Below are positions 3,079 to 25,543 of a stretch of DNA of 32,082 nucleotides, in pieces; position 1 is the first letter of the stretch; every line of letters begins with the position of its first letter. A model generated the notes under the pieces. That model was not told the origin of the DNA. It was given only the letters and a program-made list of their open reading frames with translations, and did not search any database. Source of the DNA: a virus; IMG/VR virus record IMGVR_UViG_3300021963_000431, positions 1 through 32,082 of that record; one strand, given 5' to 3'. Both the position numbers and the translations under genes were made by a program.

Positions 3079-4665
3079 ATGGCAAAATCATTAGACGGCG
3101 TATTAATTAAAAAAGCTCATGCTCCTCAGAGATACACTCTTGAGGAAGTAAAGCATTTAGAAGCCTGTATGGATCCTATAAACGGGCCTTTATATTTCTG
3201 TGAAAACTTTTTAAAGATACAACATCCAACTAGGGGTGCTATTAAGTTTGACCCTTACGATTATCAAAGAAGATTAATCCAATCTTATCACGAAAATAAA
3301 CAGTGTATCGCTATGTTACCTCGCCAGATGGGTAAGACAACCTGCGCTACGGGTTATCTGTTGTGGTATACTATGTTTGTTCCAGAAGCTCAAGTTCTTA
3401 TTGCTGCTCACAAATATGAAGGTGCGCAAGATATTATGAACCGTTATCGTTACGGGTATGAGAACTTGCCAGACTTTATACGTGCCGGTGTTTATTCATA
3501 TAATAGAAACACGATCGAATACGATAACGGATCACGTATACAAGCGACCACCACAACAGAAAACACTGGTCGCGGTAAGTCTCTTTCTTTAATTTACTGT
3601 GACGAGTTTGCGTTTGTGCAGCCACCAGAAAAAGCCAAAGAATTCTGGACTGCGCTGTCACCAACACTATCGACAGGCGGTAAGTGTATTATTACATCAA
3701 CGCCTAACTCGGACGAAGATCAGTTTGCTATGATTTGGACTGAAGCTAATAAAAAGTTTGATGATCATGGAAACGAACAGAAAGTGGGTATTAACGGATT
3801 CGCATCATATTACGCACATTGGTCTGAGCATCCTGATAGAGACGAAGACTGGGCTAGAGTAGAACGTGCCAAGATCGGAGAAGAACGCTTTCGTAGAGAA
3901 TTTGATTGCGAATTCTTAATTTATGACGAAACTCTAATTAATTCTGTTAAGTTAGCTGAATTGCAGGGTGTGGAACCTACAATGGTAATGGGTCAAACAA
4001 GATGGTATAAAGATATTGATCCTCGAATGACATATCTTGTAGCATTAGATCCTAGTATGGGAACTGGTGGAGACTATGCTGCTATACAAGTATTTGAAAT
4101 GCCAACAATGATACAGGTAGCAGAATGGCGTCATAATCTTACACCTATTCAGGCTCAAGTTAAACACATGAGAGAAATACTTAGATATATCAACGACAGA
4201 GGCCAAGAAAGAGGAGGTAATCCTCAGTTGTATTACTCTGTAGAAAACAATCAATTAGGTGAAGCAGCTTTGATTGTTATCAGCGATATTGGAGAAGAAA
4301 ACTTTCACGGACTGTTTTTAAGTGAGCCGATACGCAAAGGGCATATACGTAAATTCCGAAAAGGTTTTAATACTACGCATAGAACAAAAATTTCAGCTTG
4401 TAGCCAATTAAAAAACTTAATCGAAACTAAAAAAATGGAGATAAAATCCAAACCTTTAGTTTCGGAGTTAAAAACATTCGTAGCACACGGGGTAGGATTT
4501 GGAGCGAAAAGCGGCGAACATGACGATCTTATAGCCGCATCATTATTGATTATTAGGATGGCTGATGTATTAGCTGACTGGGATCCGCACATTTATGAAA
4601 AAATGACGGAAAAAGTCACTGAAGATCAGATGCCTATGCCTATATTCGTTAGCACAGGATTTTAA
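3079..4665 (+). CDS. 17: terminase large subunit (gp17-like ATPase/nuclease)
   Basis: Encodes 528 residues; T4 gp17 has 610. It is the motor that drives DNA into the prohead and cuts the concatemer. The N-terminal ATPase has Walker A PRQMGKTT (81-88) and Walker B LIYCDE with catalytic D175-E176, followed by the coupling motif TSTPN (about 207). The C-terminal RNase H-like nuclease shows D324 in ALDPSMGTGGDY, E389 in SVENN and D482-D483 in EHDDL, the three acidic positions expected. The gene begins 5 bases after a late-promoter motif and has no ribosome site. It is separated from gp16 by three genes and a terminator, unlike T4. Confidence 0.97.
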   Translation: MAKSLDGVLIKKAHAPQRYTLEEVKHLEACMDPINGPLYFCENFLKIQHPTRGAIKFDPYDYQRRLIQSYHENKQCIAMLPRQMGKTTCATGYLLWYTMFVPEAQVLIAAHKYEGAQDIMNRYRYGYENLPDFIRAGVYSYNRNTIEYDNGSRIQATTTTENTGRGKSLSLIYCDEFAFVQPPEKAKEFWTALSPTLSTGGKCIITSTPNSDEDQFAMIWTEANKKFDDHGNEQKVGINGFASYYAHWSEHPDRDEDWARVERAKIGEERFRREFDCEFLIYDETLINSVKLAELQGVEPTMVMGQTRWYKDIDPRMTYLVALDPSMGTGGDYAAIQVFEMPTMIQVAEWRHNLTPIQAQVKHMREILRYINDRGQERGGNPQLYYSVENNQLGEAALIVISDIGEENFHGLFLSEPIRKGHIRKFRKGFNTTHRTKISACSQLKNLIETKKMEIKSKPLVSELKTFVAHGVGFGAKSGEHDDLIAASLLIIRMADVLADWDPHIYEKMTEKVTEDQMPMPIFVSTGF

Positions 4666-6842: not shown

Positions 6843-6930
6843 TTGGCCAAGATGTCAACTTTCTTTTGAGCAAAGGCGTTATATATATACGCAGACAATT
6901 TTGTCAGCGACATTTAAAAGGAGATTTCAA

Positions 6931-7134
6931 ATGAAATCAATCGTAACTCTAGTAGCAACATTGTTCGCAGTATCAGCTTTCGCACAAGCACCAGCCAAGA
7001 AAGAAGAAAAGAAGGTAGAAGCCAAGCCAGCAGCAGCCGCTCCAGCAGCGCCAGCTAAAGACGCTAAGGCCCCTGCCGCTAAAAGCGAACCAGCTAAGAA
7101 AGACGACAAAAAAGCAGAACCTGCTAAGAAGTAA
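6931..7134 (+). CDS. small secreted Lys/Ala/Pro-rich protein
   Basis: Encodes 67 residues from the ATG at 6931, chosen because AAAGGAG lies 7-13 bases upstream; a TTG at 6901 is in frame but has no such site. Residues 1-18 form a signal peptide: K2, a hydrophobic core and AFA before the likely cleavage site. The mature part is almost wholly Lys, Ala, Pro, Glu and Asp in PAKK/APAAK-like repeats with no predicted fold. The composition recalls bacterial acid-shock (Asr-like) and histone-H1-like tails, without evidence of homology. It stands alone between two terminators. Export to the periplasm is unusual for a gene among phage replication genes. Confidence 0.72.
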   Translation: MKSIVTLVATLFAVSAFAQAPAKKEEKKVEAKPAAAAPAAPAKDAKAPAAKSEPAKKDDKKAEPAKK

Positions 7135-7459: not shown

Positions 7460-8434
7460 ATGGCAACATTAGCAGAAATTCGTGCGAAACTTCAAGAAGC
7501 ACAAAGCAAATCTTCAGGTCAGTCCACCGGCGGTGGCGACAACGCAATTTACCCACATTGGAACATGCAAGAAGGCAAGGAAGCCGTAGTGCGCTTCTTA
7601 CCCGATGGCAATCCTAACAACACATTCTTCTGGGTAGAACGTGCAATGATCAAATTGCCGTTTGCAGGTATCAAAGGCGAAACAGATTCACGTCCAGTTC
7701 AAGTGCAGGTCCCCTGCGTTGAAATGTATAACGATGGAACTGCATGTCCGATTCTGTCAGAGGTTCGTGGTTGGTTCAAGGACAAGAGCCTTGAAGAAAT
7801 GGGTCGTAAATATTGGAAGAAACGTTCATACATCTTCCAAGGTTTCGTTGTTGAAGATCCACTAAAAGAAGATACAACACCTGATAATCCTATCCGTAGA
7901 TTTATCATCGGTCCTCAAATCTATCAAATTATTCGTTCAGCATTGATGGATCCAGAGTTGGAAGAATTGCCAACTGATTACCTCCGCGGTGTAGATTTCC
8001 GTATCGCTAAAACTAGCAAAGGTGGTTTTGCAGATTACTCTACTTCAAAATGGAGTCGTCGTGAACGTGCCTTAACAGACATCGAAACTGCCGCTATTGA
8101 TGCTCACGGGTTGTTTAACCTAAGTGACTTCCTACCTAAGAAACCAACTGATGTTGAACTTAAGGTTATGAAGGAAATGTTCGAAGCATCAGTTGATGGT
8201 GAGGCATATGACATGGATCGTTGGGGTCAGTATTTCAAACCAGCAGGTATGAGTGCTGCCACAGGAGATCCTAACAAAGCCACTGCTAGACCCACTGTAG
8301 CAGATGATCAAGTAGACGACGAACCAGCACCAGTAGCTAAGGCTGCTCCGGCTGCTGCTCCGGCTGCATCTACTGAAAGCGCATCAAGGGCTCAAGATAT
8401 TCTTGCCAAGATTCGCGCTCGTCAAAACGGCTAA
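7460..8434 (+). CDS. 32: single-stranded DNA-binding protein gp32
   Basis: Encodes 324 residues; T4 gp32 has 301. It coats ssDNA and coordinates replication and recombination. The N-terminal helix with basic residues (MATLAEIRAKLQEAQSK) matches the cooperativity region. The aromatic-rich OB-fold core runs over about residues 30-250, including FFWVERAMIKL and YWKKRSY. The C-terminus (about 265-324) has an acidic patch (DDQVDDE), an Ala/Pro linker and a terminal helix. The usual zinc site appears reduced: C86 and C96 remain in CVEMYNDGTACPI but the last Cys of CPxC is Leu. A strong AAGGAGG ribosome site precedes the ATG. It leads the recombination module. Confidence 0.9.
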   Translation: MATLAEIRAKLQEAQSKSSGQSTGGGDNAIYPHWNMQEGKEAVVRFLPDGNPNNTFFWVERAMIKLPFAGIKGETDSRPVQVQVPCVEMYNDGTACPILSEVRGWFKDKSLEEMGRKYWKKRSYIFQGFVVEDPLKEDTTPDNPIRRFIIGPQIYQIIRSALMDPELEELPTDYLRGVDFRIAKTSKGGFADYSTSKWSRRERALTDIETAAIDAHGLFNLSDFLPKKPTDVELKVMKEMFEASVDGEAYDMDRWGQYFKPAGMSAATGDPNKATARPTVADDQVDDEPAPVAKAAPAAAPAASTESASRAQDILAKIRARQNG

Positions 8435-8699: not shown

Positions 8700-9779
8700 A
8701 TGGCCAAAGCATTTGATATTTCAAAATTTAGAAAGTCAATTACTAAGAATATTGAAGGTCTTAGTATTGGTTTTAATGACCCGACAGATTGGGTTTCGAC
8801 AGGTAATTACGCACTCAATTATCTAATCAGCGGCGACTTTCACAAAGGTGTTCCGCTAGGTAAAGTAACTGTGTTTGCCGGTGAATCTGGTGCTGGTAAA
8901 TCATATATCTGCTCAGGTAACCTTATTAAGGCAGCACAAGCACAGGGCATTTATCCTATCTTAATTGATACAGAAAATGCGCTCGACGAAGATTGGTTAA
9001 AAGCACTAGGTGTTGATACAGACGAAGATAAGTTGCTAAAACTTAACATGGCAATGATCGACGATGTGGCAAAGACTATTACAGAATTTGTTGCTGAATA
9101 CAAAGCAATGCCGGAAGAAACTCGCCCTAAGGTCTTGTTTATCCTTGATTCATTAGGTATGTTGTTAACTCCTACAGACGTTAATCAGTTTGAAGCAGGT
9201 GATTTGAAAGGTGACATGGGTCGTAAGCCTAAAGCACTAACAGCATTGGTTCGTAACTGTGTTAACATGTTTGGTTCTTTAAATATTGGCTTAGTCGCTA
9301 CTAATCACACATATGCATCGCAGGACATGTTTGATCCCGATGACAAGATCAGCGGCGGCCAGGGTTTTATCTATGCGTCTAGTATTGTAGTTGCTATGAA
9401 AAAACTCAAACTCAAAGAGGACGAGGATGGCAACAAGATTTCAGAAGTCAAAGGTATTCGTGCCGCATGTAAAATCATGAAAACACGTTATGCTAAACCT
9501 TTTGAAAGTGTTCAGGTTAAGATTCCATACGAAACAGGAATGAATCCTTACAGCGGATTGGTTGATCTTGCCGAAGGTAAAGGTATGCTTAAGAAAGATG
9601 GCAACCGACTTTCTTATGTTACCAGCGATGGTGAAATTCTTAAATTCTATCGTAAAGAGTGGGAACGCAATGAAGGCGGATGTCTAGATCAAGTAATGAC
9701 AGACATTTCAAATCATGGCGAAAAATCCGTTTCTGAGATAACTACTACAGTTGAACCTGAAACGGAGACCCAAGGATGA
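8700..9779 (+). CDS. uvsX: UvsX recombinase (RecA family)
   Basis: Encodes 359 residues; T4 UvsX has 391. It forms the presynaptic filament for strand invasion and recombination-dependent replication. Walker A is GESGAGKS (61-68). Walker B ends KVLFILD with D150. The segment VATNHTYASQ and GGQGFIYASSIVV carry the L1/L2 region of RecA-like folds. The C-terminus is acidic (TETQG preceded by Glu-rich residues), as in T4. The gene follows the 68-residue gene by one base and overlaps the next by ATGA, so expression with gp32 is coordinated. UvsY is two genes downstream. Confidence 0.96.
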   Translation: MAKAFDISKFRKSITKNIEGLSIGFNDPTDWVSTGNYALNYLISGDFHKGVPLGKVTVFAGESGAGKSYICSGNLIKAAQAQGIYPILIDTENALDEDWLKALGVDTDEDKLLKLNMAMIDDVAKTITEFVAEYKAMPEETRPKVLFILDSLGMLLTPTDVNQFEAGDLKGDMGRKPKALTALVRNCVNMFGSLNIGLVATNHTYASQDMFDPDDKISGGQGFIYASSIVVAMKKLKLKEDEDGNKISEVKGIRAACKIMKTRYAKPFESVQVKIPYETGMNPYSGLVDLAEGKGMLKKDGNRLSYVTSDGEILKFYRKEWERNEGGCLDQVMTDISNHGEKSVSEITTTVEPETETQG

Positions 9780-11129: not shown

Positions 11130-11891
11130 ATGAACAAAATCGTATTAGTTACAGGTGGATTCGACCCACTACACTCAGGGCACATTGCCTATTTCAAAGC
11201 AGCTAAAGCACTAGGCGATATTTTAATTGTTGGAGTAAATTCAGATGCATGGTTAACTCGCAAGAAAGGTGCACCATTTATGCCTTACAAAGAACGTGCA
11301 AGTATTGTAAGGAATATCGTTGGCGTTGATTTTGTTATAGATTTTAACGACAACGACGGTAGTGCTAAAAATGCTATCCAGATGGTTCGACAAAGTTATC
11401 CTAGCGATAAAATTATTTTTGCGAATGGTGGCGATCGAACTGATAAAAATATTCCAGAAATGGATATCGACGATGACAATTTAGAATTTGTTTTTGGCGT
11501 TGGCGGCTTCGATAAAGCAAATTCTAGCTCGTGGATACTACAAGAATGGAAAGCACCAAAGACTGAACGTCCGTGGGGATATTATCGTATACTGCATGAA
11601 GTTCCAGGAATGAAAGTTAAAGAACTTACAGTCAATCCGGGTAAGAGTCTAAGTATGCAGCGTCACTATCATCGTGCAGAGTATTGGATTGTCAGCGAAG
11701 GACGAGCAGTGGTTAACAGCATGATGCCAGGCGGCTATTCGTTACCTTCAACTGAGTTAGCATTACACGAAGAATATAAAGTTCCAGTAAACGAATGGCA
11801 TCAGCTGACTAATCCGCATACTGAACCTGTAAAGATTGTAGAAATACAATACGGAGAACGATGCGAAGAAGAGGATATAGAAAGAAAATGA
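11130..11891 (+). CDS. cytidylyltransferase-like / type II PMI-like cupin fusion
   Basis: Encodes 253 residues in two domains. Residues 1-140 are a nucleotidyltransferase of the TagD/RfaE2 type: GGFDPLHSGH with the HxGH signature (H15, H18) and the NSSSW segment for the later substrate motif. These enzymes join CMP or AMP to a phosphorylated polyol or sugar. Residues 147-253 are a cupin like the C-terminal half of type II mannose-6-phosphate isomerase: ERPWGYYRIL, metal ligands in QRHYHRAEYW and WHQLTNP. One protein would therefore isomerise or bind a sugar and activate it. The next gene overlaps by ATGA. Confidence 0.88.
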   Translation: MNKIVLVTGGFDPLHSGHIAYFKAAKALGDILIVGVNSDAWLTRKKGAPFMPYKERASIVRNIVGVDFVIDFNDNDGSAKNAIQMVRQSYPSDKIIFANGGDRTDKNIPEMDIDDDNLEFVFGVGGFDKANSSSWILQEWKAPKTERPWGYYRILHEVPGMKVKELTVNPGKSLSMQRHYHRAEYWIVSEGRAVVNSMMPGGYSLPSTELALHEEYKVPVNEWHQLTNPHTEPVKIVEIQYGERCEEEDIERK

Positions 11892-12559
11892 AAGTATTTG
11901 TTGGTTACGATATCAGAGAAGATGTTGCGTTTCAAGTATGCGAATACAGCATAACAAAACATCAACCAGATGCAGATGTTATTCCTCTCAAGCAAAAAGA
12001 ATTAAGAGAAAGCGGTCTGTATACTAGAGCCGTTGACCCGTTAAGCTCTACTGAATTTACTTTTACTAGATTCCTAGTTCCTTACCTTTCTGACTATAAA
12101 GGATGGGCAGTATTTGTCGACTGCGATTTTGTATTTGTAGACGATGTTGCAAAATTATTTGAACAGGCCGATGATCGATATGCAGTAATGGTAGTGCAAC
12201 ATGATTACACTCCTAAAGAAAGCATTAAGATGGATGGCTGCAAACAGTTGCCTTATCCTAGAAAAAATTGGAGCTCTACCATATTGTGGAACTGCGGGCA
12301 TCCGTCAAATAAACAAATTACCCCGGACGTAGTTAATACTCAAACAGGACAATATCTACACAGATTCCAATGGCTTAAGGATGAGGAAATCGGAAACTTA
12401 AAACCTGAATGGAATTGGTTAGTAGGATGGTATCAAGAACCGCAAGACGGTTCTCCTAAAGCATTGCACTATACCGAAGGCGGTCCATGGTTTAAAGATT
12501 ATCGCAGATGCGACTATCATAAAGTGTGGAAAAAATATCTTAAAGAAATGTTAAAATGA
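11888..12559 (+). CDS. GT8-like glycosyltransferase
   Basis: Encodes 223 residues from the ATG at 11888, which overlaps the previous stop as ATGA; an upstream ATG at 11861 lies inside the cupin gene and is less likely. The fold is GT-A: start MKVFVGYDIRED, nucleotide-sugar DxD at D78-C79-D80 in VFVDCDFVF, and a late HYTEGGPWF that matches the HxxGxxKPW end-motif of GT8 enzymes. It transfers a hexose from a nucleotide donor to an unknown acceptor. It lies between the activating fusion enzyme and a paralogue series, so a shared glycan is likely. Confidence 0.82.
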   Translation: MKVFVGYDIREDVAFQVCEYSITKHQPDADVIPLKQKELRESGLYTRAVDPLSSTEFTFTRFLVPYLSDYKGWAVFVDCDFVFVDDVAKLFEQADDRYAVMVVQHDYTPKESIKMDGCKQLPYPRKNWSSTILWNCGHPSNKQITPDVVNTQTGQYLHRFQWLKDEEIGNLKPEWNWLVGWYQEPQDGSPKALHYTEGGPWFKDYRRCDYHKVWKKYLKEMLK

Positions 12560-13359
12560 GCAAATGGATATTCCTTAGTAAGGGAAAAGAAGACGATTAC
12601 ATAAATTTGTTCGCATCAGGCTGCGGCGAAAAACCAGTTGATCCTGCAACATTCGATCCAGAAGAAGGTAATGATCCTGTTGTATTAAGAGGAATTCTTA
12701 AAAAAAGAATAATTAAAAAATGTCTTAATATCGGCAGAACATTTTATTATGTAGATACAGGTTATTTTGGAAACGAAAGAACCTTAACTAATCCCAATGG
12801 ATGGAAGTATTGGCACAGGATAGTGAAAAACGATTTACAACATCACAATATCATTCAAAGACCCGACGATCGGTTTAAACATTTTAATAAAAAATTTAAT
12901 CCTTGGAAAAAGAGCGGAAGAAAAATATTAATAGCTAAACCAGACGAAAAGCCTATGAAATACTATGGGCTTGAATTAGATCAATGGGTTGAAGATACTA
13001 TAAATGAAATTAAAAAATATACTGATAGACCGATTGAAGTAAGAGACCGAGCTAAACAAAGAATTGATCGAGTGGTTCATAATACTTTACAAGAAGCATT
13101 AGATGATGATGTATTTGCTTTGGTTACATTCAATAGTGTAGCTGCGATTGAAAGTGTATTTCATGGTATACCTGCATTTACGCTTTCGCCAACACATGCC
13201 GCTAGTCCTGTAACATTGCAAGATCTGAGTAAAATAGAAACTCCTTATTATCCAGACAAAGACAAATTATATGCATGGGGGTGTCACCTTGCATACGGCC
13301 AATTTCATGTTAGCGAACTAAGAAATGGAAAAGCAAAAGAGATGTTAGAAAATGAATGA
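12556..13359 (+). CDS. KpsC/GT-B-like glycan enzyme, paralogue A
   Basis: Encodes 267 residues. It shares with four other genes here an order of motifs: RTFYYVDTGYFGN, WHRIVKNDLQHHN, a strand KILIAKP, then FALVTFNSVAAIESVFHGIPAF and LAYGQF. The NSVAAIESVFHGIP block is like the C-terminal donor-binding half of Kdo-transferases of the KpsC type. The usual R-x-HP signature is replaced by EVRDRAKQ, so activity may differ. It overlaps the GT8-like gene by ATGA and the next paralogue by 8 bases. Capsule or LPS sugar transfer is inferred. Confidence 0.65.
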   Translation: MSKWIFLSKGKEDDYINLFASGCGEKPVDPATFDPEEGNDPVVLRGILKKRIIKKCLNIGRTFYYVDTGYFGNERTLTNPNGWKYWHRIVKNDLQHHNIIQRPDDRFKHFNKKFNPWKKSGRKILIAKPDEKPMKYYGLELDQWVEDTINEIKKYTDRPIEVRDRAKQRIDRVVHNTLQEALDDDVFALVTFNSVAAIESVFHGIPAFTLSPTHAASPVTLQDLSKIETPYYPDKDKLYAWGCHLAYGQFHVSELRNGKAKEMLENE

Positions 13360-14149
13360 TGAATCAATAGAAAATTTTTTATCTATAGGATCTGGTAATG
13401 TTGTAACAGCAGACAGCGAAGATACATCTAAACCTTTAGTTTTAAGAGGTGTCATTAAAAAAGATCACATATATAAATGCATCGAAACTAATAGAGACTA
13501 TTACTATGTAGATACTGGATATCTTGGAAATTTTCCTAGCCCAGGAAATACTTCGGGTAAAAAGAAATGGCATAGAATTGTTAAGAATGGCTTACAGCAT
13601 GATCAAACCTTTGATGTCCCAGACGACCGCTGGAAAGATCTAGTTAAACAAGATCCGAGATTAAAGTGGACTGGTTGGAAAAATCATAATAAAAAAATAT
13701 TATTAGTAATGCCTAATCCTAAGGCCTGTAAATTTTACGATGTCGATTATGACAAGTGGGTTGAGGAAACTACTAATCAAATTAAAGAAAATATCGATCT
13801 TCCTATAGAAGTAAGAGTCAAAGGCAGCAGAAGCTATAGAAATAATGAATATTCTATATACGATGCATTTGATAGCGGAGTATATGCTACTGTGGCGTTT
13901 AATAGTATTGCAGCTCTTGAATCTGTTCTTTACGGAATTCCGGCCTTTGTATCTGTTCCATGCGCAGCAACACCGTTAGCTAGTTACGATTTAACACAGT
14001 TAAAAAATCCTTTTAGGCCTAGCGAAGAACAAATTTTAAAACATTGTCGATCTATAGCATACGGACAATTTACATTAGAGGAAATCTCCAGCGGAGTTGC
14101 TTGGAGAATTATTAACAGGTATACTTATGAAACTTCTATTAAACGATAA
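13352..14149 (+). CDS. KpsC/GT-B-like glycan enzyme, paralogue B
   Basis: Encodes 265 residues and is the nearest relative of paralogue A. It has DYYYVDTGYLGN, WHRIVKNGLQHD, KILLVMP, ATVAFNSIAALESVLYGIPAF and IAYGQF in the same order and spacing. As in A, the R-x-HP site is lost (EVRVKGSR). The first 40 residues are variable. The two genes probably arose by tandem duplication followed by long divergence. It overlaps both neighbours, so the series is translated as one unit. Confidence 0.65.
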   Translation: MNDESIENFLSIGSGNVVTADSEDTSKPLVLRGVIKKDHIYKCIETNRDYYYVDTGYLGNFPSPGNTSGKKKWHRIVKNGLQHDQTFDVPDDRWKDLVKQDPRLKWTGWKNHNKKILLVMPNPKACKFYDVDYDKWVEETTNQIKENIDLPIEVRVKGSRSYRNNEYSIYDAFDSGVYATVAFNSIAALESVLYGIPAFVSVPCAATPLASYDLTQLKNPFRPSEEQILKHCRSIAYGQFTLEEISSGVAWRIINRYTYETSIKR

Positions 14150-15215
14150 AGAGATATCCCATTTTCTAGTCAGTCAAATCGACCACCTTGGTGCTCTTAA
14201 ATTGTTATGGAAAAATGAAGAACACGCCGGTGAGGTTATCTCTTACGTTATCTTTGAAAAACAAAAACCTAAATATAATCTCGAGAAGATGCGTAAAAAA
14301 TTCAAAGATAAAATCAAAGGAGCGGTCGAAAGAGATCTTAAAAATTGGTGGGGCAATGCCAAGAATACGCTCGCCGAACGAAAACAAGTTTATTTCAAAT
14401 ACATCAATTCTAATCTAGATTACTTTATGAATAACCTTGGAGAAGATCGTGTATTCGAAATGTATAAGAACAGCTGGAAACAAAACTTTGTAAAAAGTGT
14501 TGGGTATCAGATCGATACAGATGCTGTGATGATCAGAAGAACGAAATTTAATAATCCTAAAGAAAATTGCTTAATTAGAAATACAGTAGGCAACGAGGGA
14601 TTATTGATTGAAAAAATCGACAACAGTTATCCATTCTGGTTCATAGATAGCGGTTATACTAATTTTGTCGAGCCTAACAAAAAATGGCATAGGGTAGTTC
14701 AAAATCATCTGCACTACGGAAAATATTTTGATGCTCCTCCCGATAGACTCGGTAACTTTAAAATATTTCCGAGACCGTGGAGAGAGGGTGGAGACAAAAT
14801 CTTAGTCATTGAGCCAGGACAATTTGCTGCCGGAATATTTCATGTAAACATAAAAGAATGGAAATATCAGGTCGAAGAGGAATTAAGAAAGTATACCGAT
14901 AAAAAAATCGTATTCAGAGAAAAGGCTCCTAAAAAACAAAGAGCACCGTTGTATAAACATCTGCTCGACGAAGATTATCATTGTGTTATAAGCATTAACT
15001 CTAATGCTGCTACAGAGGCAGTGTGGGCCGGAATTCCTATAATTACATTAGATCGACATATCACGAATCCAATCGCTAAGAATAGTCTGTCAGACATTAA
15101 TGATTTAGCAAGACCAAATATAGCTAACTGGTTATGTATGTTAAGTTATAGTCAATTTTCTTACGACGAGCTGATAGACGGAACTGCTATAAAACTTATA
15201 CAGAAATATGCATAA
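14127..15215 (+). CDS. KpsC/GT-B-like glycan enzyme with N-terminal extension, paralogue C
   Basis: Encodes 362 residues from the ATG at 14127 with AGGT upstream; a TTG at 14097 is in frame but lies deep in paralogue B. Residues 1-150 form a separate Lys-rich helical extension not seen in the others. The rest repeats the family order: PFWFIDSGY, WHRVVQNHLHYG, KILVIEP, CVISINSNAATEAVWAGIPIIT and LSYSQF. R-x-HP is replaced by VFREKAPK. The extension may bind a partner or membrane surface. Function is inferred from the family. Confidence 0.63.
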   Translation: MKLLLNDKEISHFLVSQIDHLGALKLLWKNEEHAGEVISYVIFEKQKPKYNLEKMRKKFKDKIKGAVERDLKNWWGNAKNTLAERKQVYFKYINSNLDYFMNNLGEDRVFEMYKNSWKQNFVKSVGYQIDTDAVMIRRTKFNNPKENCLIRNTVGNEGLLIEKIDNSYPFWFIDSGYTNFVEPNKKWHRVVQNHLHYGKYFDAPPDRLGNFKIFPRPWREGGDKILVIEPGQFAAGIFHVNIKEWKYQVEEELRKYTDKKIVFREKAPKKQRAPLYKHLLDEDYHCVISINSNAATEAVWAGIPIITLDRHITNPIAKNSLSDINDLARPNIANWLCMLSYSQFSYDELIDGTAIKLIQKYA

Positions 15216-16134
15216 ATTTACCGCTGTCGCATATTATGGCGGCATTCCTCCGAATAACAGTAATCCTGAAAAACCTCGAATCCTTGATAATTTTTGTCAA
15301 GGTGTAATTGCTTCAGGTGATACAGCTATTCAGCATAAAGCTATGACTGTTTTACCTTGTGATGTAGCACTTATACAAGGATTTGTTCACGAGCATGGAA
15401 AAAATGCACCTCATCTATTGTTAAGAAGACAAGCGATTGATTTACAAAAAAGAAATAACAAACGTAGTTTAATTGTTGATAGTAATTTATTTTTATATGC
15501 TGATCCAGGCAATACAAAAACTTATTTGAGGTATAGTTTTGACGGTGTTTTTCCAACTACTGGTTTTTATTTCGACAAAGATATAGATCCTGCTCGTTGG
15601 CAAAAAATTAGTCAAAGATTAAACTTAAATTTAAAACCTTGGAGAACACAAGGTGAAAATATTCTTATCTGTTTACAAAGAAACGGTGGTTGGTCAATGC
15701 AAGGTGTAAGCACTATTGAATGGCTCAATAAAACTATAGAACAAATTAGAACATATTCTAAAAAACGTCATATAGTTGTTAGAGGTCACCCAGGAGATAA
15801 AAAAACTCTCCAATCTTTAATGATTAATCATAAAAATGTATCAGTTAGTAGAAATGACAGACTAGTTGACGACCTAAGGAACTCATGGGCCACCGTAGTC
15901 TACAACAGCAGCCCTAGTGTAGCCAGTATCATCGAAGGAGTTCCGGCATTTTTAACAGATCCCCATCCAGAAAACAGTCAATCTTATGCAGTATCGAATA
16001 TTGGACTGGATCGTCTTGAAGATCCATTGCTACCTGATAGACAATCGTGGATAGAAAAACTATCTATGTGTCATTGGTCGTTCGATGAATTAAAATCTGG
16101 TGAAGCTTGGAGATTTTTTAGGCAATATATTTAA
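15208..16134 (+). CDS. KpsC/GT-B-like glycan enzyme, paralogue D
   Basis: Encodes 308 residues with an additional N-terminal half (VALIQGFVHEHG, LIVDSNLF) that resembles the start of paralogue E. The C-terminal part keeps HIVVRGHPGD, the R-x-HP type site of GT-B and Kdo-transferase-like proteins, then ATVVYNSSPSVASIIEGVPAF and a DRQSWIEKLSMCHWS end. It is thus closer to an active-enzyme pattern than A to C. It overlaps paralogue C by 8 bases and meets the leftward transferase at a shared TTTAAA holding both stops. Confidence 0.66.
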   Translation: MHKFTAVAYYGGIPPNNSNPEKPRILDNFCQGVIASGDTAIQHKAMTVLPCDVALIQGFVHEHGKNAPHLLLRRQAIDLQKRNNKRSLIVDSNLFLYADPGNTKTYLRYSFDGVFPTTGFYFDKDIDPARWQKISQRLNLNLKPWRTQGENILICLQRNGGWSMQGVSTIEWLNKTIEQIRTYSKKRHIVVRGHPGDKKTLQSLMINHKNVSVSRNDRLVDDLRNSWATVVYNSSPSVASIIEGVPAFLTDPHPENSQSYAVSNIGLDRLEDPLLPDRQSWIEKLSMCHWSFDELKSGEAWRFFRQYI

Positions 16135-17374: not shown

Positions 17375-18211
17375 ATGAGATTCAAATTATATCGAGAATA
17401 CGGTGCTTTAAATAGTCCGTCAGTGTTCAATGCCGTTGAATTAGGTTTGAGAAATGCTGGTCATGAAATCGTCACTTCTGGTGAAGATATTGCAGTCATA
17501 TGGTCAGTTTTATGGCAGGGTCGCATGGCAAACAATCAAAAAATTTATCAAGAAGCACGACGTCAAGCAAAGCCGATACTAATAATAGAAGTAGGTAACT
17601 TGAAAAGAAATCATACCTGGAGAATAAGTTTAGACCATATCAATGGTCTAGGCAAATTTGCTAATTCTGGCGAGTTAGACCCAGATAGACCAAAAAAACT
17701 AGGGGTTAAATTAGAACCGATCAAAGAAATAAGAAGACCAGAAATCCTAATAGCCACACAACATCAGGCTAGTCTTCAGTGGCAGGGGATGCCTAATATG
17801 GCGACATGGACTAAAGACATTGTTTATAAATTACAAGAGTATACTAGGCGAAAAATCATAATAAGACCACATCCAAGATCCCCATTTAGAATAGATTTGC
17901 CTGGGACTGTTATGGAAAGTCCTCAAAAAATTCTTGGGTCATACGATGACTTCAATATCAATTACAACTATCATTGTGTAGTAAACTATAACAGCGGACC
18001 AGCTGTTCAAGCTGCTATTCACGGTGTTCCTATCATCTGTGACAAATCCAGTTTGGCCGGTGATTTAGGCGAAAAAATAGAAAATATTGAAAACGCCAAA
18101 CTCCCAGACAGAAGCGATTGGTTTCTTAAATTGTGCCACACCGAATGGACGGTAGACGAAATTCAACAAGGCATTCCGTTTTCTCGCCTAATACCTAAAA
18201 TCTCTGGTTGA
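17375..18211 (+). CDS. KpsC/GT-B-like glycan enzyme, paralogue E
   Basis: Encodes 278 residues. The first half (IAVIWSVLWQGRM, PILIIEVGN) aligns with the start of paralogue D, and the second half has KIIIRPHPRS, the canonical R-x-HP site, then HCVVNYNSGPAVQAAIHGVPII and a DRSDWFLKLCHTEWT end. A middle DLPGTVMESP segment is unlike its relatives. Of the five it looks most like an ordinary GT-B or Kdo-transferase-type enzyme. It has its own late promoter and ends just before the sigma70 promoter of the UvsW module. Confidence 0.68.
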   Translation: MRFKLYREYGALNSPSVFNAVELGLRNAGHEIVTSGEDIAVIWSVLWQGRMANNQKIYQEARRQAKPILIIEVGNLKRNHTWRISLDHINGLGKFANSGELDPDRPKKLGVKLEPIKEIRRPEILIATQHQASLQWQGMPNMATWTKDIVYKLQEYTRRKIIIRPHPRSPFRIDLPGTVMESPQKILGSYDDFNINYNYHCVVNYNSGPAVQAAIHGVPIICDKSSLAGDLGEKIENIENAKLPDRSDWFLKLCHTEWTVDEIQQGIPFSRLIPKISG

Positions 18212-18242: not shown

Positions 18243-19418
18243 ATGACATCATCTGGATTCATTGAAGACATTTTTTCGGAGTTTGCTCGATTCGTCGATC
18301 TTCGAGCAATCGCTGTCCAACGACAGGACTTATCGGTAATAGAAAGTTTTTCTATTACGATTTCTCATGGAAATCAACTCACAGAAAATCAAGCTAAATT
18401 CATTCTAAAATTACTGCACAAATACCGAAATATTTGTCAGCTATCAGGTTTTGACTATTTTGATGCTTTAGAAAATCCATCGTGGAAAACTAATTTTAGA
18501 ACTCTCGATTACTCTAAAAAGATTTTTGTCGAGAAAGATGAAAATGAAAAACTATTTGTCTGTGCGAAGTTTCCATACCAGCTAAAAAAGCAAGTAGATG
18601 AGGAAATTTCCGTCAATTCTTATAGCACATGGGATAGTGAAAGAAAGATTAGAAAGTTTACAGTTGATGATCATAATATCATTCAGCTATACGAATTTGC
18701 CAAAAATAATGAATTTGAAATCGAAGAAAGTTTTTTAAACTTAGTTTCTCAAGTTGAAGAAATTTGGCAAAATTATGAAAAAATTTCGCCGTATTCTTCT
18801 ATCGTCAACGGCAAGGTGGAATTGCATAATGCGCCGGCAGATGCTGTAGATTACTGGAACAAAAACAAAACTGATCAACTGTTTAATGATCTGCTGCTGG
18901 CTAAAGACATGGGATATATCTTGTCAAAAAATCCAGAAAATTCCATCGAAAAAATCGCCAGTTCTGATTCTAATTCTTTCTGGGTTAAAACTAATAAAGA
19001 ATTTTTAGAAATTTGTAAACAAGTTGACGGAAGAGTTTGTGTAGTATTAGATCGCGTTGGTAGAACTTTAGAGTGGTTGGAAAAATTCACGTCGGATATC
19101 GAAGAAGTTGGGATTCCAAGAGCTGAAATTAAGGTTTGTTTCCGTGCAGACAAAACAGAAAATCCAGAATTGAATTCGTGGATTAAAGAAAACGGTTTCG
19201 GCGGAAAAGTCGATAACGGAAAAATTTTAATCTTTAATCACAAACCTGCCAAGTGGTTGTTTAAAGAATCAGATTCTGTTAAAATATTAGCAAGTAACAA
19301 TTTATATCCATCGACTAACCAAATTTCTAGAGATTGGTTTAATAGTCATCCTTGTGTTATCTATATAGGAGATATAAAGCCATCTCAGGATAAGGAACAA
19401 AAAATTGTCAACCTGTAA
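18243..19418 (+). CDS. HARP-like domain protein coupled to UvsW
   Basis: Encodes 391 residues with no signal peptide. Residues 90-160 (FVCAKFPYQLKKQ, TWDSERKIRKF, NIIQLYEFAKNNEFEIE) follow the pattern of HARP-like domains in SNF2-type annealing helicases: aromatic-Pro-Tyr, Trp-Asp-x-x-x-Lys, then a helix. The remaining 200 residues include a Rossmann-like segment near RVCVVLDRVGRTLEWLEKF and end near LYPSTNQIS; no helicase motifs are seen. The gene overlaps uvsW by 14 bases, so the products may act together at branched DNA. The HARP resemblance is by eye and moderate. Confidence 0.68.
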   Translation: MTSSGFIEDIFSEFARFVDLRAIAVQRQDLSVIESFSITISHGNQLTENQAKFILKLLHKYRNICQLSGFDYFDALENPSWKTNFRTLDYSKKIFVEKDENEKLFVCAKFPYQLKKQVDEEISVNSYSTWDSERKIRKFTVDDHNIIQLYEFAKNNEFEIEESFLNLVSQVEEIWQNYEKISPYSSIVNGKVELHNAPADAVDYWNKNKTDQLFNDLLLAKDMGYILSKNPENSIEKIASSDSNSFWVKTNKEFLEICKQVDGRVCVVLDRVGRTLEWLEKFTSDIEEVGIPRAEIKVCFRADKTENPELNSWIKENGFGGKVDNGKILIFNHKPAKWLFKESDSVKILASNNLYPSTNQISRDWFNSHPCVIYIGDIKPSQDKEQKIVNL

Positions 19419-20859
19419 ATTAATTATAAAAGACGAAGTCAATATTAAGGTAGACGGACTTAGCGTTGAAACAAGACGTAAGATAGTTAACGCACTCAAA
19501 TACGATCTTCCTTACGCTCGCCATATGCCTGCTTACAAATTAGGTCGGTGGGACGGAACTAAGACATTCTTTGGCATCGGTGGCACAGGATATCTAGCAC
19601 ACCTAGATGTTATACTTCCTATTATCGAAGACTCTGGTTACGACATTGATGTTGACGATTTAAGGCAGCATCAGTCATTTAAATTTTCCCCTATAGGAGA
19701 AAATTATTGGGCCGATCAAGGTAAGACTTGGCCTAAGGGTCATCCGGAAGCCGGTAAGCCTATCGTGTTGCGAGACTATCAATATGATGTTGTTAATAAG
19801 TTTTTAGAGAATCCACAATCGTTACAGGAGGTAGCTACTGGTGCAGGTAAAACTATTACTACGGCGACGTTATCGCATCTTTGTGAACCGTATGGTCGCA
19901 CGATGGTTATTGTTCCGAATAAATCGCTTGTTGTTCAAACTGAAGAAGACTACAAAAATTTAGGATTAGATGTAGGTGTATATTTCGGTGATCGAAAAGA
20001 ATTAAACAAAACCCATACAATCTGCACTTGGCAAAGTCTTAACGTATTAGAAAAGAAAAGCTATGATTCTGATACACTAACACTAGCAGAGTTTTGTGAA
20101 GGAGTTTGTGCAATCATTATTGACGAAGTCCATCAAGCTAAAGCAGATGTATTGATGAGACTGGCTACTTTAAATTTTCGTAACTGTGCTATTCGATGGG
20201 GATTAACTGGAACTATACCTAAAGAAAAATGGGAGTTTCAAAGTTTGCTTGCCAGCATTGGACCAGTGATCAATCAAGTTTCGGCACATGATTTACAGCA
20301 GAAGGATGTGTTGGCAAGATTAGATATACAAATTCTACAAACCAACGACATTCAAGTATTTAGAACGTATGCTGAAGAATACACCTGGTTAGTTACAGAT
20401 GATACTCGCTTAGATTGGATATCTAATAAAATACAAACGATAGGTAGCACAGGAAATACATTGGTATTAGTTAATAGAATTGATACAGGTAATAAACTGA
20501 TTAAAAGGATTCCAGATGCAGTTTTTATCAGTGGTGCTGTTAAATTAGATGACAGGAAAGAAGAGTATGACGAAATTAAAACTAGTGATAACAAGATTAT
20601 TGTGGCGACTTACGGTGTGGCCGCTGTGGGTATTAATATTCCAAGGATTTTTAATCTGGTTCTTCTTGAGCCCGGAAAGAGCTTTGTCCGCGTTATCCAG
20701 AGCATTGGACGAGGCATTAGAAAAGCGGAAGATAAAGACTTCGTCCAAATCTGGGATATCACATCTTCCTGCAAATACGCCAAGCGCCATCTCACTGAAC
20801 GCAAGAAGTATTACAAGGAAGCGAAATATCCATTTACACTAACTAAGGTCAATACATGA
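19405..20859 (+). CDS. uvsW: UvsW-type DNA/RNA helicase
   Basis: Encodes 484 residues; T4 UvsW has 587 in older counts and about 500 in processed form. It is an SF2 helicase that regresses forks and unwinds R-loops. An N-terminal domain (about 1-100, with ARHMPAYKLGRWDG) precedes the motor. Motif I is ATGAGKT (144-150), motif II DEVH (240-243), motif III LTGT near 268, and motif VI QSIGRGIRKA near 447. The start is a TTG with AAGGA 8 bases upstream, inside the previous gene; no ATG lies nearby. It overlaps the FkbM gene by ATGA. Confidence 0.93.
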   Translation: MSTCKLIIKDEVNIKVDGLSVETRRKIVNALKYDLPYARHMPAYKLGRWDGTKTFFGIGGTGYLAHLDVILPIIEDSGYDIDVDDLRQHQSFKFSPIGENYWADQGKTWPKGHPEAGKPIVLRDYQYDVVNKFLENPQSLQEVATGAGKTITTATLSHLCEPYGRTMVIVPNKSLVVQTEEDYKNLGLDVGVYFGDRKELNKTHTICTWQSLNVLEKKSYDSDTLTLAEFCEGVCAIIIDEVHQAKADVLMRLATLNFRNCAIRWGLTGTIPKEKWEFQSLLASIGPVINQVSAHDLQQKDVLARLDIQILQTNDIQVFRTYAEEYTWLVTDDTRLDWISNKIQTIGSTGNTLVLVNRIDTGNKLIKRIPDAVFISGAVKLDDRKEEYDEIKTSDNKIIVATYGVAAVGINIPRIFNLVLLEPGKSFVRVIQSIGRGIRKAEDKDFVQIWDITSSCKYAKRHLTERKKYYKEAKYPFTLTKVNT

Positions 20860-23709: not shown

Positions 23710-24353
23710 GCAAAGCCTATACCGTAGTCATCTTTAATATCGCTGCAGGCATTAGTCATAACATTCCATTTATCTTGATTTAAATTATTAACGAAAAAAT
23801 ACGGGCCTGGATGATATGCTGTGTCGTGAAATCCGACAACTCCTGTATCACTTAATAGCTTGGTATATTCCCACTCGACTAATACTTGATTTATGCTATG
23901 CCAGCCGTCGATGAATAAGAAATCAATCCTGTCAACGCCTAGTTCATTTAACTTATTCATAACAACATCTATATGTTCGCTTCTTGTTTGAATAGTGTGT
24001 ATGTTTAAATCTATATTATTAAGATATGTTTTATCTTCTATATCAATACCTAAATAATACGTGTCGTCTCTTTTATTATTAAGAAAAATTGATGTGCTGG
24101 TATTTTTAAATCGCTTACTTCTGCTAACTCCAATTTCAACGATGCACCTACAATTTTCTTTTATGGATAAAAATCTAGGTAACAAACTCATTTGATTATG
24201 GACACTGAAATCTTCTAAATCTCTTGATCTAGGAGGAAGGATTGGCAAGCCTGTATCTTCAAAACAAAATCGTCGATCAACAAACGGCCAATCTAGATCA
24301 TCTCTATAATCATTGAATCTGATATCTTTAACTAGATCTTCTTCCCATCTCAT
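23694..24353 (-). CDS. class I methyltransferase (Methyltransf_24/CmcI-like)
   Basis: Encodes 219 residues from the ATG at 24353, which overlaps the RuBisCO-like gene stop (ATGA) and has GGGGA 8 bases upstream; an ATG 15 bases earlier is an alternative. Motif I is CIVEIGVSRSKRF, with acidic YLGIDIED after the next strand. The signature FLFIDGWHSINQVLVEWEY followed by GVVGFHDTAYHPG is typical of methyltransferases of sugars and antibiotics (CmcI, TylF-like) in which D and H bind metal. It may methylate the product of the RuBisCO-like step or the finished sugar. Confidence 0.83.
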   Translation of the reverse strand: MRWEEDLVKDIRFNDYRDDLDWPFVDRRFCFEDTGLPILPPRSRDLEDFSVHNQMSLLPRFLSIKENCRCIVEIGVSRSKRFKNTSTSIFLNNKRDDTYYLGIDIEDKTYLNNIDLNIHTIQTRSEHIDVVMNKLNELGVDRIDFLFIDGWHSINQVLVEWEYTKLLSDTGVVGFHDTAYHPGPYFFVNNLNQDKWNVMTNACSDIKDDYGIGFAWKRT

Positions 24354-25543
24354 TGAATTAGTCCCCATTTTTTAATTGCAACATCATACTCGTCACCGCC
24401 GGTGTGATCAATTGCTTGTCTCATTGCTGTAGCACCGGCTATGGTTCCACCTGGGTGTCCATGCACTGCTCCGCCGGCATTGGCCAAGTAGTCAATACCA
24501 GCTAGCTCAGTCACTTTGTTTACCAATCCCGGATGCATTCCGCAACTTAATGCAGGAACAGTATTGCCTGCCACTAGGATTTCTATACACTTCTTAATCT
24601 CTTCTGGATCGTCGTTACTGTAGCCGCCAACCATTCCTGTTTGAATTGTATCAGCTCCCATCAATGTAGCTAATTGACACATAACTGGCCAACTAATACT
24701 AAATCTATGATTTTTATCTGTTGTAACTTTTGCACCACTGCTTTGATAATGTAAGAATAATGGTAAATCTAATTTTCTAATACTGTTATATGCACCATAC
24801 CCACTAAACACGTTGATATGAACACCGTTACCACCTAACTCGTGGACTCGTTTAACTCTATCAACCAGGATATGTGGATCACAGTTAATGGTATGACAAA
24901 ATACAATCTTACGACTTTGTTTAGCAAGATAGTTAGCAATGATATCTACACGACGATCTAAAGGAGCGCAAGCCGGATTGACCATAATTTCATCTTCTTT
25001 GATAAAGTCAACACCACCATCGACCATCTGCTTGACCATTTCTAATAGAACTTCGGGAGTGATACCAATCTTAGGCTTTACAATACTTCCAAACAATGGT
25101 TTATTGTATTGACCGGTTAGTTTTCGCATACCGGTTAAACCAAACTTAGGACCTAAAAAATGTTTAGTTACAGTTTCTGGCAGTTCTAATTTTACCAGTC
25201 TACATTTAGTGACAATATCAATATCAACATGCCCGCCCATTAATTGACATAACATGTGGCTAATGCCATCACTTTCCCAATCAGTGTTAATTACAGGAAA
25301 TGCAATAGAAACTAACCCGTCGGTTTGTTTTTCTAACATTCCTTCTTCACCTACAATTATACAACTATGATTTTCAAAAAGGTCATCAGTTTCCCATTCA
25401 TTTCTAACGTTAGGATTTCCGACACTTTGACCAATTGCTAAATTCCATGCTGCATCTTTTAGGTTAGCAGAACTAGACATTTCGTAAGTGGCAATATAAT
25501 AACGGTTCAAATCTAATTCACTTCTATCCTTAAAAAACTTCAT
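24350..25543 (-). CDS. RuBisCO-like protein (form IV type)
   Basis: Encodes 397 residues of the RuBisCO large-chain fold. GSIVKPKIGI (K156, K158) matches the KPKLGL site; FIKEDE gives K182, D184, E185, the carbamate-lysine and metal ligands, with the correct spacing of 26. VHINVFSGYGAYN and HGHPGG match later barrel loops, and S333 matches S379. The carboxylase-specific residues are gone: Q267 and S268 replace H294 and R295, and Y308 replaces the loop-6 K334. So it is not a CO2 fixer. RuBisCO-like proteins enolise or isomerise sugar phosphates. The start has AAAGGAG upstream, inside the cupin gene. It sits in a glycan operon. Confidence 0.93.
   Translation of the reverse strand: MKFFKDRSELDLNRYYIATYEMSSSANLKDAAWNLAIGQSVGNPNVRNEWETDDLFENHSCIIVGEEGMLEKQTDGLVSIAFPVINTDWESDGISHMLCQLMGGHVDIDIVTKCRLVKLELPETVTKHFLGPKFGLTGMRKLTGQYNKPLFGSIVKPKIGITPEVLLEMVKQMVDGGVDFIKEDEIMVNPACAPLDRRVDIIANYLAKQSRKIVFCHTINCDPHILVDRVKRVHELGGNGVHINVFSGYGAYNSIRKLDLPLFLHYQSSGAKVTTDKNHRFSISWPVMCQLATLMGADTIQTGMVGGYSNDDPEEIKKCIEILVAGNTVPALSCGMHPGLVNKVTELAGIDYLANAGGAVHGHPGGTIAGATAMRQAIDHTGGDEYDVAIKKWGLIQ

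Follow-up and report, generated by a model that had tools for sequence, protein, structure and literature searches.

We describe a RuBisCO-like protein (RLP) encoded by a phage within an operon of sugar-nucleotide and glycan-type genes. We consider it rather probable that this protein represents a new clade of the RuBisCO superfamily, viral for the most part, which phages have spread and which has been recruited to the making of a nucleotide-activated sugar; it would be the first member of that superfamily with a place in glycan assembly. A role in nucleotide-sugar or glycan synthesis is highly likely. As to the reaction, the reading we favor, with a probability of about 0.55, is that of an enolizing ketose-phosphate isomerase or epimerase that would feed a sugar-phosphate nucleotidyltransferase (NTase) on the way to a nucleotide-activated glycan precursor.

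A RuBisCO-like gene in a phage operon

The window, by which we mean the whole stretch of DNA analyzed here, is a 32,082-base fragment of an aquatic virus carrying a gp17-type terminase, a gp32-type single-stranded DNA-binding protein and UvsX (Table 1). An earlier note, made from the sequence, had reported a RuBisCO-like gene; the gene is real, but its orientation had to be corrected, since the frame of 397 codons lies on the minus strand and the plus strand at the same place is rich in stops. It is the third of six genes of a minus-strand operon, in the order NTase, cupin, RLP, methyltransferase, putative glycosyltransferase and a half-size protein resembling glycerophosphodiester phosphodiesterases (GDPD-like). 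Gene ends in the operon overlap by 4-20 bases; the start of the cupin gene overlaps the NTase gene and its end overlaps the RLP gene. A UvsW-type helicase and conserved phage proteins (27554 onward) bound the operon.

Table 1. Positions of the features of the window discussed in the text
Feature	Position	Strand	Basis or remark
RuBisCO-like protein (RLP), 397 aa	24350..25543	-	ORF, families and PDB, trees, model and fold search
RLP codons 182-185, K-E-D-E	24989..25000	-	Predicted carbamylated lysine and Mg ligands; spinach K201/D203/E204
RLP codons 156-158, K-P-K	25070..25078	-	Spinach K175/K177 equivalents; K156 is the predicted general base
Cupin, 107 aa	25530..25853	-	HxHx(n)E metal motif intact; phrog_24762, E 1e-31
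Sugar-phosphate nucleotidyltransferase (NTase), 242 aa	25834..26562	-	First gene of the operon; PF12804, phrog_3980, PDB 4evw E 1e-14
Methyltransferase (Methyltransf_24-like), 224 aa	23694..24368	-	Weak PF13578 match, under cut-off
Putative glycosyltransferase, 259 aa	22930..23709	-	Predicted from sequence; without Pfam match
Half-size GDPD-like protein, 148 aa	22487..22933	-	AlphaFold model and fold search
UvsW-type helicase	19405..20859	+	Phage core gene flanking the cluster on one side; phrog_16, E 1e-73
Conserved phage protein	27936..28700	+	Other side of the cluster; phrog_11058, E 3e-61
Terminase large subunit (gp17 type)	3079..4665	+	Nearest isolates PA5oct-group Pseudomonas jumbo phages, 54%
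gp32-type ssDNA-binding protein	7460..8434	+	phrog_1192, E 5e-63
UvsX recombinase	8700..9779	+	phrog_97, E 1e-68

Phage core genes thus flank the operon on both sides, and among 18 longer viral contigs bearing RLP we observed a T4-type gp23 capsid gene in five (the largest contig being 326 kb) and a terminase related to that of the window in eight. The gene is therefore phage-encoded, as had been proposed. The label 'T4-like' holds for the core genes; the nearest isolates of the terminase, however, are the PA5oct-group jumbo phages, and Sinorhizobium phage Phosso is related at 51%. Since the terminase is closest to those of jumbo phages, the source virus is itself probably a jumbo phage. A bacterial-phage chimera is very unlikely, as an identical gene order is found in three independent assemblies (L001-L003), where RLP is 99% identical to that of L001 and 93% identical to those of L002 and L003.

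Elsewhere in the window, on the plus strand, a PF01467 cytidylyltransferase-like domain fused to a PF01050 mannose-6-phosphate-isomerase-type cupin (11130-11891) constitutes a second sugar-nucleotide enzyme. Five related proteins of a single similarity cluster lie in near-tandem on the same strand (12556-13359, 13352-14149, 14127-15215, 15208-16134 and 17375-18211); this family, matched in just one other examined locus, has expanded locally within the glycan region. A small ORF (6901-7134, plus strand) is rich in Ala, Lys and Pro and begins like a signal peptide; unlike the adjoining phage genes, it resembles a bacterial periplasmic protein and may serve as a pointer to the host.

Fold, active site and phylogeny

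That the protein is of RuBisCO type is borne out by profile, sequence and structure. It matches PF00016 (RuBisCO_large) with 124 bits (E 1.2e-35; cut-off 30.1) and PDB sequences down to E 1e-38. An AlphaFold model computed with 25 viral homologues in the alignment (pLDDT 88.6, pTM 0.88) has the RuBisCO fold: Foldseek retrieves form III RuBisCO (2d69, 3a12) with a TMq of 0.85-0.86 and MtnW with 0.78-0.83, and identity to the IV-photo proteins (Chlorobium 1ykw and R. palustris RLP2 2qyg) is 22% by fold search. No NCBIfam equivalog cut-off is passed. Form III gives the highest score (TIGR03326, 176.2 bits for a cut-off of 497), the others being the large-subunit model PRK04208 (164/438), the MtnW models TIGR03332 (141.9/513.6) and PRK09549 (171.7/409) and the OiaX model NF042437 (146.8/700). 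RLP is a RuBisCO homologue of no named family.

Using a fixed offset of 19 to spinach numbering (for example, K156 corresponds to K175), we found that RLP retains K156, K158, K182, D184 and E185, equivalent to K175, K177, K201, D203 and E204; in its C-terminal part, S333, G335 and G357/G358 stand for S379, G381 and G403/G404. The landmarks listed in the earlier note are thus present, and so are the losses that it listed: Q267 stands at the H294 position and S268 at that of R295, and the loop-6 lysine (Lys334) is missing. Further substitutions are N123 to G104, D202 to E183 (KEDE for KDDE) and H327 to Q301.

In RuBisCO, a K175-type base together with the carbamate and the metal permits enolization, while carboxylation and the binding of the second phosphate involve K334, H294 and R295. 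Given the loss of these last three, RLP is almost certainly non-carboxylating. With fold and metal site retained and carboxylation residues gone, its description as a form IV-type homologue stands, and we infer an enolizing enzyme that does not carboxylate.

Most of these features extend to the whole clade. The lysines, KEDE, G104, Q267 and SCG at 333-335 are invariant in 56 dereplicated phage members and 23 cellular members (one cellular row being partial). Changes common to the clade are N123 to G104, D202 to E183, H294 to Q267, loss of the loop-6 lysine and 'SCG' at 333-335; the R295 position is occupied by K or S268, with a single R. KEDE, with E183 at the D202 position, is a clade signature seen in none of the references checked, and in the same alignment MtnW has K175 and lacks K177. 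The sub-clade of the window additionally shows H327 to Q301, Q105 to H and a tendency to S at position 268, whereas most members outside it, whether from cells or from viruses, retain K268 and H301. In this sub-clade positions 105, 268 and 301 change together, from Q, K and H to H, S and Q respectively, and the joint shift suggests that the substrate has changed within the viral clade. As judged from the residues, the substrate in this sub-clade is probably singly phosphorylated. Comparison with the L001 copy gives a dN of 0.003 and a dS of 0.107 (dN/dS about 0.03): the gene is under strong purifying selection.

Phylogenetic analysis was performed with IQ-TREE (LG+C20) on 103 rows, including 24 phage rows and 56 references from forms I, II and III, OiaX-type proteins, MtnW and RLPs of the 3qfw type; trees were built without IV-photo and GOS sequences. 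In this maximum-likelihood tree the phage and cellular RLPs stand apart from all 56 references at 100/100, and hence outside the MtnW clade with the same support. A single clade (100/100), lying among cellular rows, takes in 21 of the 24 phage rows. A larger tree with 56 phage rows places cellular sequences on the deepest branches, phages in several sub-clades and some SAR11 sequences among the phages. The separate phage clade that had been anticipated is therefore found as far as the references are concerned, but it is not exclusive to phages, cellular members being interleaved.

Scanning IMG/VR with the single sequence produced 55 viral loci (56-99% identical), and with a profile the number of viral contigs with an RLP relative rose to at least 297. 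Tblastn against a cultured phage isolate collection gave no match, and the BFVD viral structure library contained no RuBisCO-fold match (best TMq 0.38). A narrow form I/III scan of IMG/VR viral contigs, with just two exact patterns, gave 46 pattern matches and no relatives.

Cellular relatives occur in 23 loci, from SAR11, Legionella nautarum, L. drozanskii and L. maceachernii, Azospirillum oleiclasticum, Elusimicrobium, nanoarchaea, Verrucomicrobium, a Patescibacterium and others. PF00016 is present in one of 197 Pelagibacterales species genomes, namely the starting genome, and the gene is thus a rare accessory in SAR11. Azospirillum alone, among 14 RLP-bearing cellular genomes, has a second RuBisCO homologue. 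The RLP of one 3.3-kb contig binned as a Crocinitomicaceae MAG (L057, DORI01000002.1) and the RLP of viral contig L378 are identical; from this identity the MAG contig is probably viral contamination and should not be counted as a cellular host.

Conserved partners and a proposed pathway

The earlier note had based its case for a new substrate on the glycan-type partners in the window. Such sugar-nucleotide and glycan neighbors recur across 95 viral RLP loci; the methyltransferase is frequent, not universal (32 viral loci and no cellular one), and the putative glycosyltransferase cluster is found in 10 viral loci. The constant partners are the NTase (85/95), the short GDPD-like protein (70/95) and the cupin (65/95), usually in the order NTase-cupin-RLP-GDPD. 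In the 10 viral loci where the NTase was not seen, this is for some because the contig ends; it also accompanies RLP in 18 of the 23 cellular loci.

The NTase bears a weak likeness to IspD/LicC. For the cupin, which has no Pfam match, no NCBIfam family and no significant match in a PDB sequence search, the metal motif and the sequence argue for the assignment. The GDPD-like protein is likewise without a Pfam match and without a significant hit in a PDB sequence search; its AlphaFold model (pLDDT 94.8) has GDPDs as top PDB folds (2pz0: prob 0.99, E 5e-3, TMq 0.57, at half length), and H5R6G7, E17N18, E34xD36 and G47H48D49 are invariant. In SAR11, the copies form a block between the housekeeping genes PheRS, LepA, Thy1 and HflK, and one copy adjoins GT17, GT61 and DUF4422 genes. 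The SAR11 loci L063-L068 have a second, more divergent NTase on the other side of RLP, that is, two NTase sub-families per cassette. In Legionella, the neighbors of the RLP-NTase pair are a LicD gene of divergent sequence and a weak match to O-antigen ligase.

The NTase family also occurs without RLP in cultured cyanophages, several of which have the cupin and GDPD-like families as well, and here the NTase is found in fusions. In Synechococcus phage Bellamy, gp206 (L187:6992-8146) fuses it to RpiB (PF02502, E 4e-32); gp206 is annotated as 'phosphatase', and the neighboring gp209 has two nucleotidyltransferase-type matches. Synechococcus phage S-SKS1 (L189:6001-7425) has a fusion to RibB/DHBP synthase (PF00926, E 5e-65) and S-CAM9 one to a HAD_2 phosphatase. 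The NTase-RpiB fusion occurs in 30 viral loci, with a PfkB-type kinase in all 30, the cupin in 27 and the GDPD-like protein in 26. In about 10 viral loci the NTase is fused to RibB and adjoined by a transaldolase and an SKS1-type kinase; an unrecognized use of DHBP outside riboflavin synthesis is possible in these loci. One RLP phage (L036) has RibB, the SKS1-type kinase and transaldolase beside its RLP.

We considered whether HAD_2, RpiB, RibB and RLP are mutually exclusive partners of the NTase. Among 79 NTase loci, RLP is present in 18, a HAD_2 fusion in 58 and both in two. A HAD_2-fused NTase occurs together with RLP in L043, L373, L375, L381 and L382, and in the last four it lies directly ahead of cupin-RLP, which weakens the idea: HAD_2 and RLP are not strict alternatives. 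The NTase tree shows several changes in the association with RLP, of which at least five are backed by supported branches, so RLP behaves as a swapped module.

The fusions constrain the NTase and not, directly, RLP. RpiB and RibB act on ribose- or ribulose-5-phosphate. We therefore propose a ketopentose-type phosphate as the RLP substrate feeding the NTase, and the company common to RLP and RpiB (NTase, cupin and GDPD-like protein) favors an isomerase or epimerase. Since RibB and RpiB products differ, several end products may exist.

In the pathway that we propose, K182 would be carbamylated and, with D184 and E185, would bind Mg2+. K156 would take the proton beside the carbonyl of a ketose phosphate, possibly a ketopentose phosphate or a closely similar compound, and so form an enediolate. 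Lacking the loop-6 lysine, H294 and R295, the enzyme would not carboxylate this intermediate, which would instead be reprotonated elsewhere. The resulting isomerized or epimerized sugar phosphate would be joined to a nucleotide, with CDP as best guess, by the co-transcribed NTase. The cupin may perform a further isomerization or epimerization; the methyltransferase and glycosyltransferase products would modify and then transfer the activated sugar, and the half-size GDPD-like protein would act on the phosphodiester formed with it. The final glycan may decorate the envelope of the infected cell or the virion.

Other readings have to be weighed against this pathway. RLP could act as an enolase or decarboxylase on a phosphorylated sugar acid or diketo sugar, in the manner of MtnW or OiaX, on a catabolic or precursor-making side path to which the NTase is loosely related. 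MtnW and OiaX are the best characterized RLPs and share the enolate chemistry, and the cupin and HAD partners recall the MtnD and MtnX folds. Yet RLP scores far under the cut-offs of both families and falls outside both clades at 100/100; it has lost the H294/R295 equivalents that OiaX retains and has G104 where MtnW has a lysine (position 123); its cupin matches no NCBIfam model; and its near-constant partner is an NTase. No salvage or four-carbon-acid kinase neighbors were seen at RLP loci, while OiaX-type loci have such kinases. We thus regard this reading as doubtful and reject methionine salvage in particular, in agreement with the earlier note, which had seen no salvage genes in the operon; none lies beside RLP among the loci examined. 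A true, if divergent, CO2-fixing RuBisCO, which is the usual reading of viral rbcL, might be argued from the form III model being the best NCBIfam score, from the retained K175, K177, K201, D203 and E204 equivalents and from the reported carboxylation upon co-expression of viral rbcL and rbcS (PMC12615777). With the loop-6 lysine, H294 and N123 equivalents lost clade-wide and R295 lost in nearly all members, a score of 176 out of 497 bits for form III, a separate clade, and no PRK or Calvin-cycle partners noticed, this is exceedingly unlikely.

Several ligand residues are substituted and many RLPs have no known function, so that a structural or regulatory relic, scaffold or inhibitor within the glycan operon might also be envisaged; however, K156, K158, K182, D184, E185, S333 and G335 are invariant in phages and cells, and this, together with a dN/dS of about 0.03, indicates a working active site, which leaves such a role decidedly unlikely. 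The cassette might instead modify phage DNA, with hypermodified or glycosylated bases as products, rather than an envelope or virion glycan: DNA glycosylation occurs in T4-type phages, and DNA-metabolism genes of the window flank the operon. Against this, the RLP-NTase unit is chromosomal in SAR11, near PheRS, LepA, HflK and glycosyltransferase genes, and lies beside LicD in Legionella, and an unsystematic look noticed no base-modification gene near the operon; we hold DNA modification to be unlikely.

Relation to known systems

MtnW, the 2,3-diketo-5-methylthiopentyl-1-phosphate enolase (2oej, 2zvi, 4nas), is a form IV protein with the metal motif and a K175-type lysine, like RLP, and has a similar fold (TM 0.78-0.83), but identity is about 25-27% and the clades are separate. 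RLP differs further by its lack of methionine-salvage neighbors, its retained K177, a glycine for the MtnW lysine at 123, and KEDE in place of KDDE. OiaX (3-oxo-isoapionate-4-phosphate decarboxylase) and the kinase-linked RLPs act on phosphorylated sugar acids. OiaX shares with RLP the glycine at position 123, whereas H294/R295 are retained in OiaX; identity to this group is 28-32%, its loci are catabolic with four-carbon acid sugar kinases, and its clade is separate. Form III RuBisCO of Pyrococcus and Thermococcus (2d69, 3a12), the best match by fold and by profile score, is 25% identical; RLP has lost its carboxylation residues, and no AMP-pathway partners were seen. The R. rubrum RLP is a 5-methylthioribulose-1-phosphate isomerase, thus acting on a ketose phosphate, and has a cupin in the same pathway. 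That pathway, the MTA-isoprenoid shunt, is named in PMC4958253. Our comparison with the R. rubrum enzyme is by description, and no isoprenoid or methylthio genes were noticed near RLP.

RuBisCO large-chain homologues on viral contigs have been read as carbon fixation: an 'RbcL-like' gene was reported in landfill viruses, with the rbcL annotation also in random IMG/VR viruses (PMC12607003), and a viral rbcL1 was expressed with rbcS, with carboxylation claimed (PMC12615777). We liken these to RLP by description only. Sixty-five marine GOS RuBisCO homologues belong to no known group (PMC1821046). The statement that such an enzyme has no established role in a phage needs qualification, since viral 'rbcL' has been reported at the annotation level; in the open PMC literature we found neither the RLP clade nor its cassette described, and no account of a part played by any RuBisCO homologue in making glycans. 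If our reading is true, the clade could account for some of the viral 'rbcL' now counted as carbon-fixation genes. Because the RLP profile finds at least 297 IMG/VR contigs and the narrow form I/III scan none, viral 'rbcL' calls need a check of active site and context before they are read as CO2 fixation. An unassigned branch of the RuBisCO superfamily, the best studied among enzymes, would also gain a pathway open to testing, in which the partners are few and the gene fusions point to pentose phosphates as substrates.

Among phages, the LPS-type clusters of cyanophages (Bellamy, S-SM2, S-CAM9, SynMITS9220M01 and S-SKS1) differ from RLP loci in having no RLP and, in several, an NTase fused to RpiB, RibB or HAD. 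They belong to T4-type phages, encode the same NTase family and, in several cases, the cupin and GDPD-like families, as at RLP loci. The mobile cassette would link phage and SAR11 surface-glycan islands.
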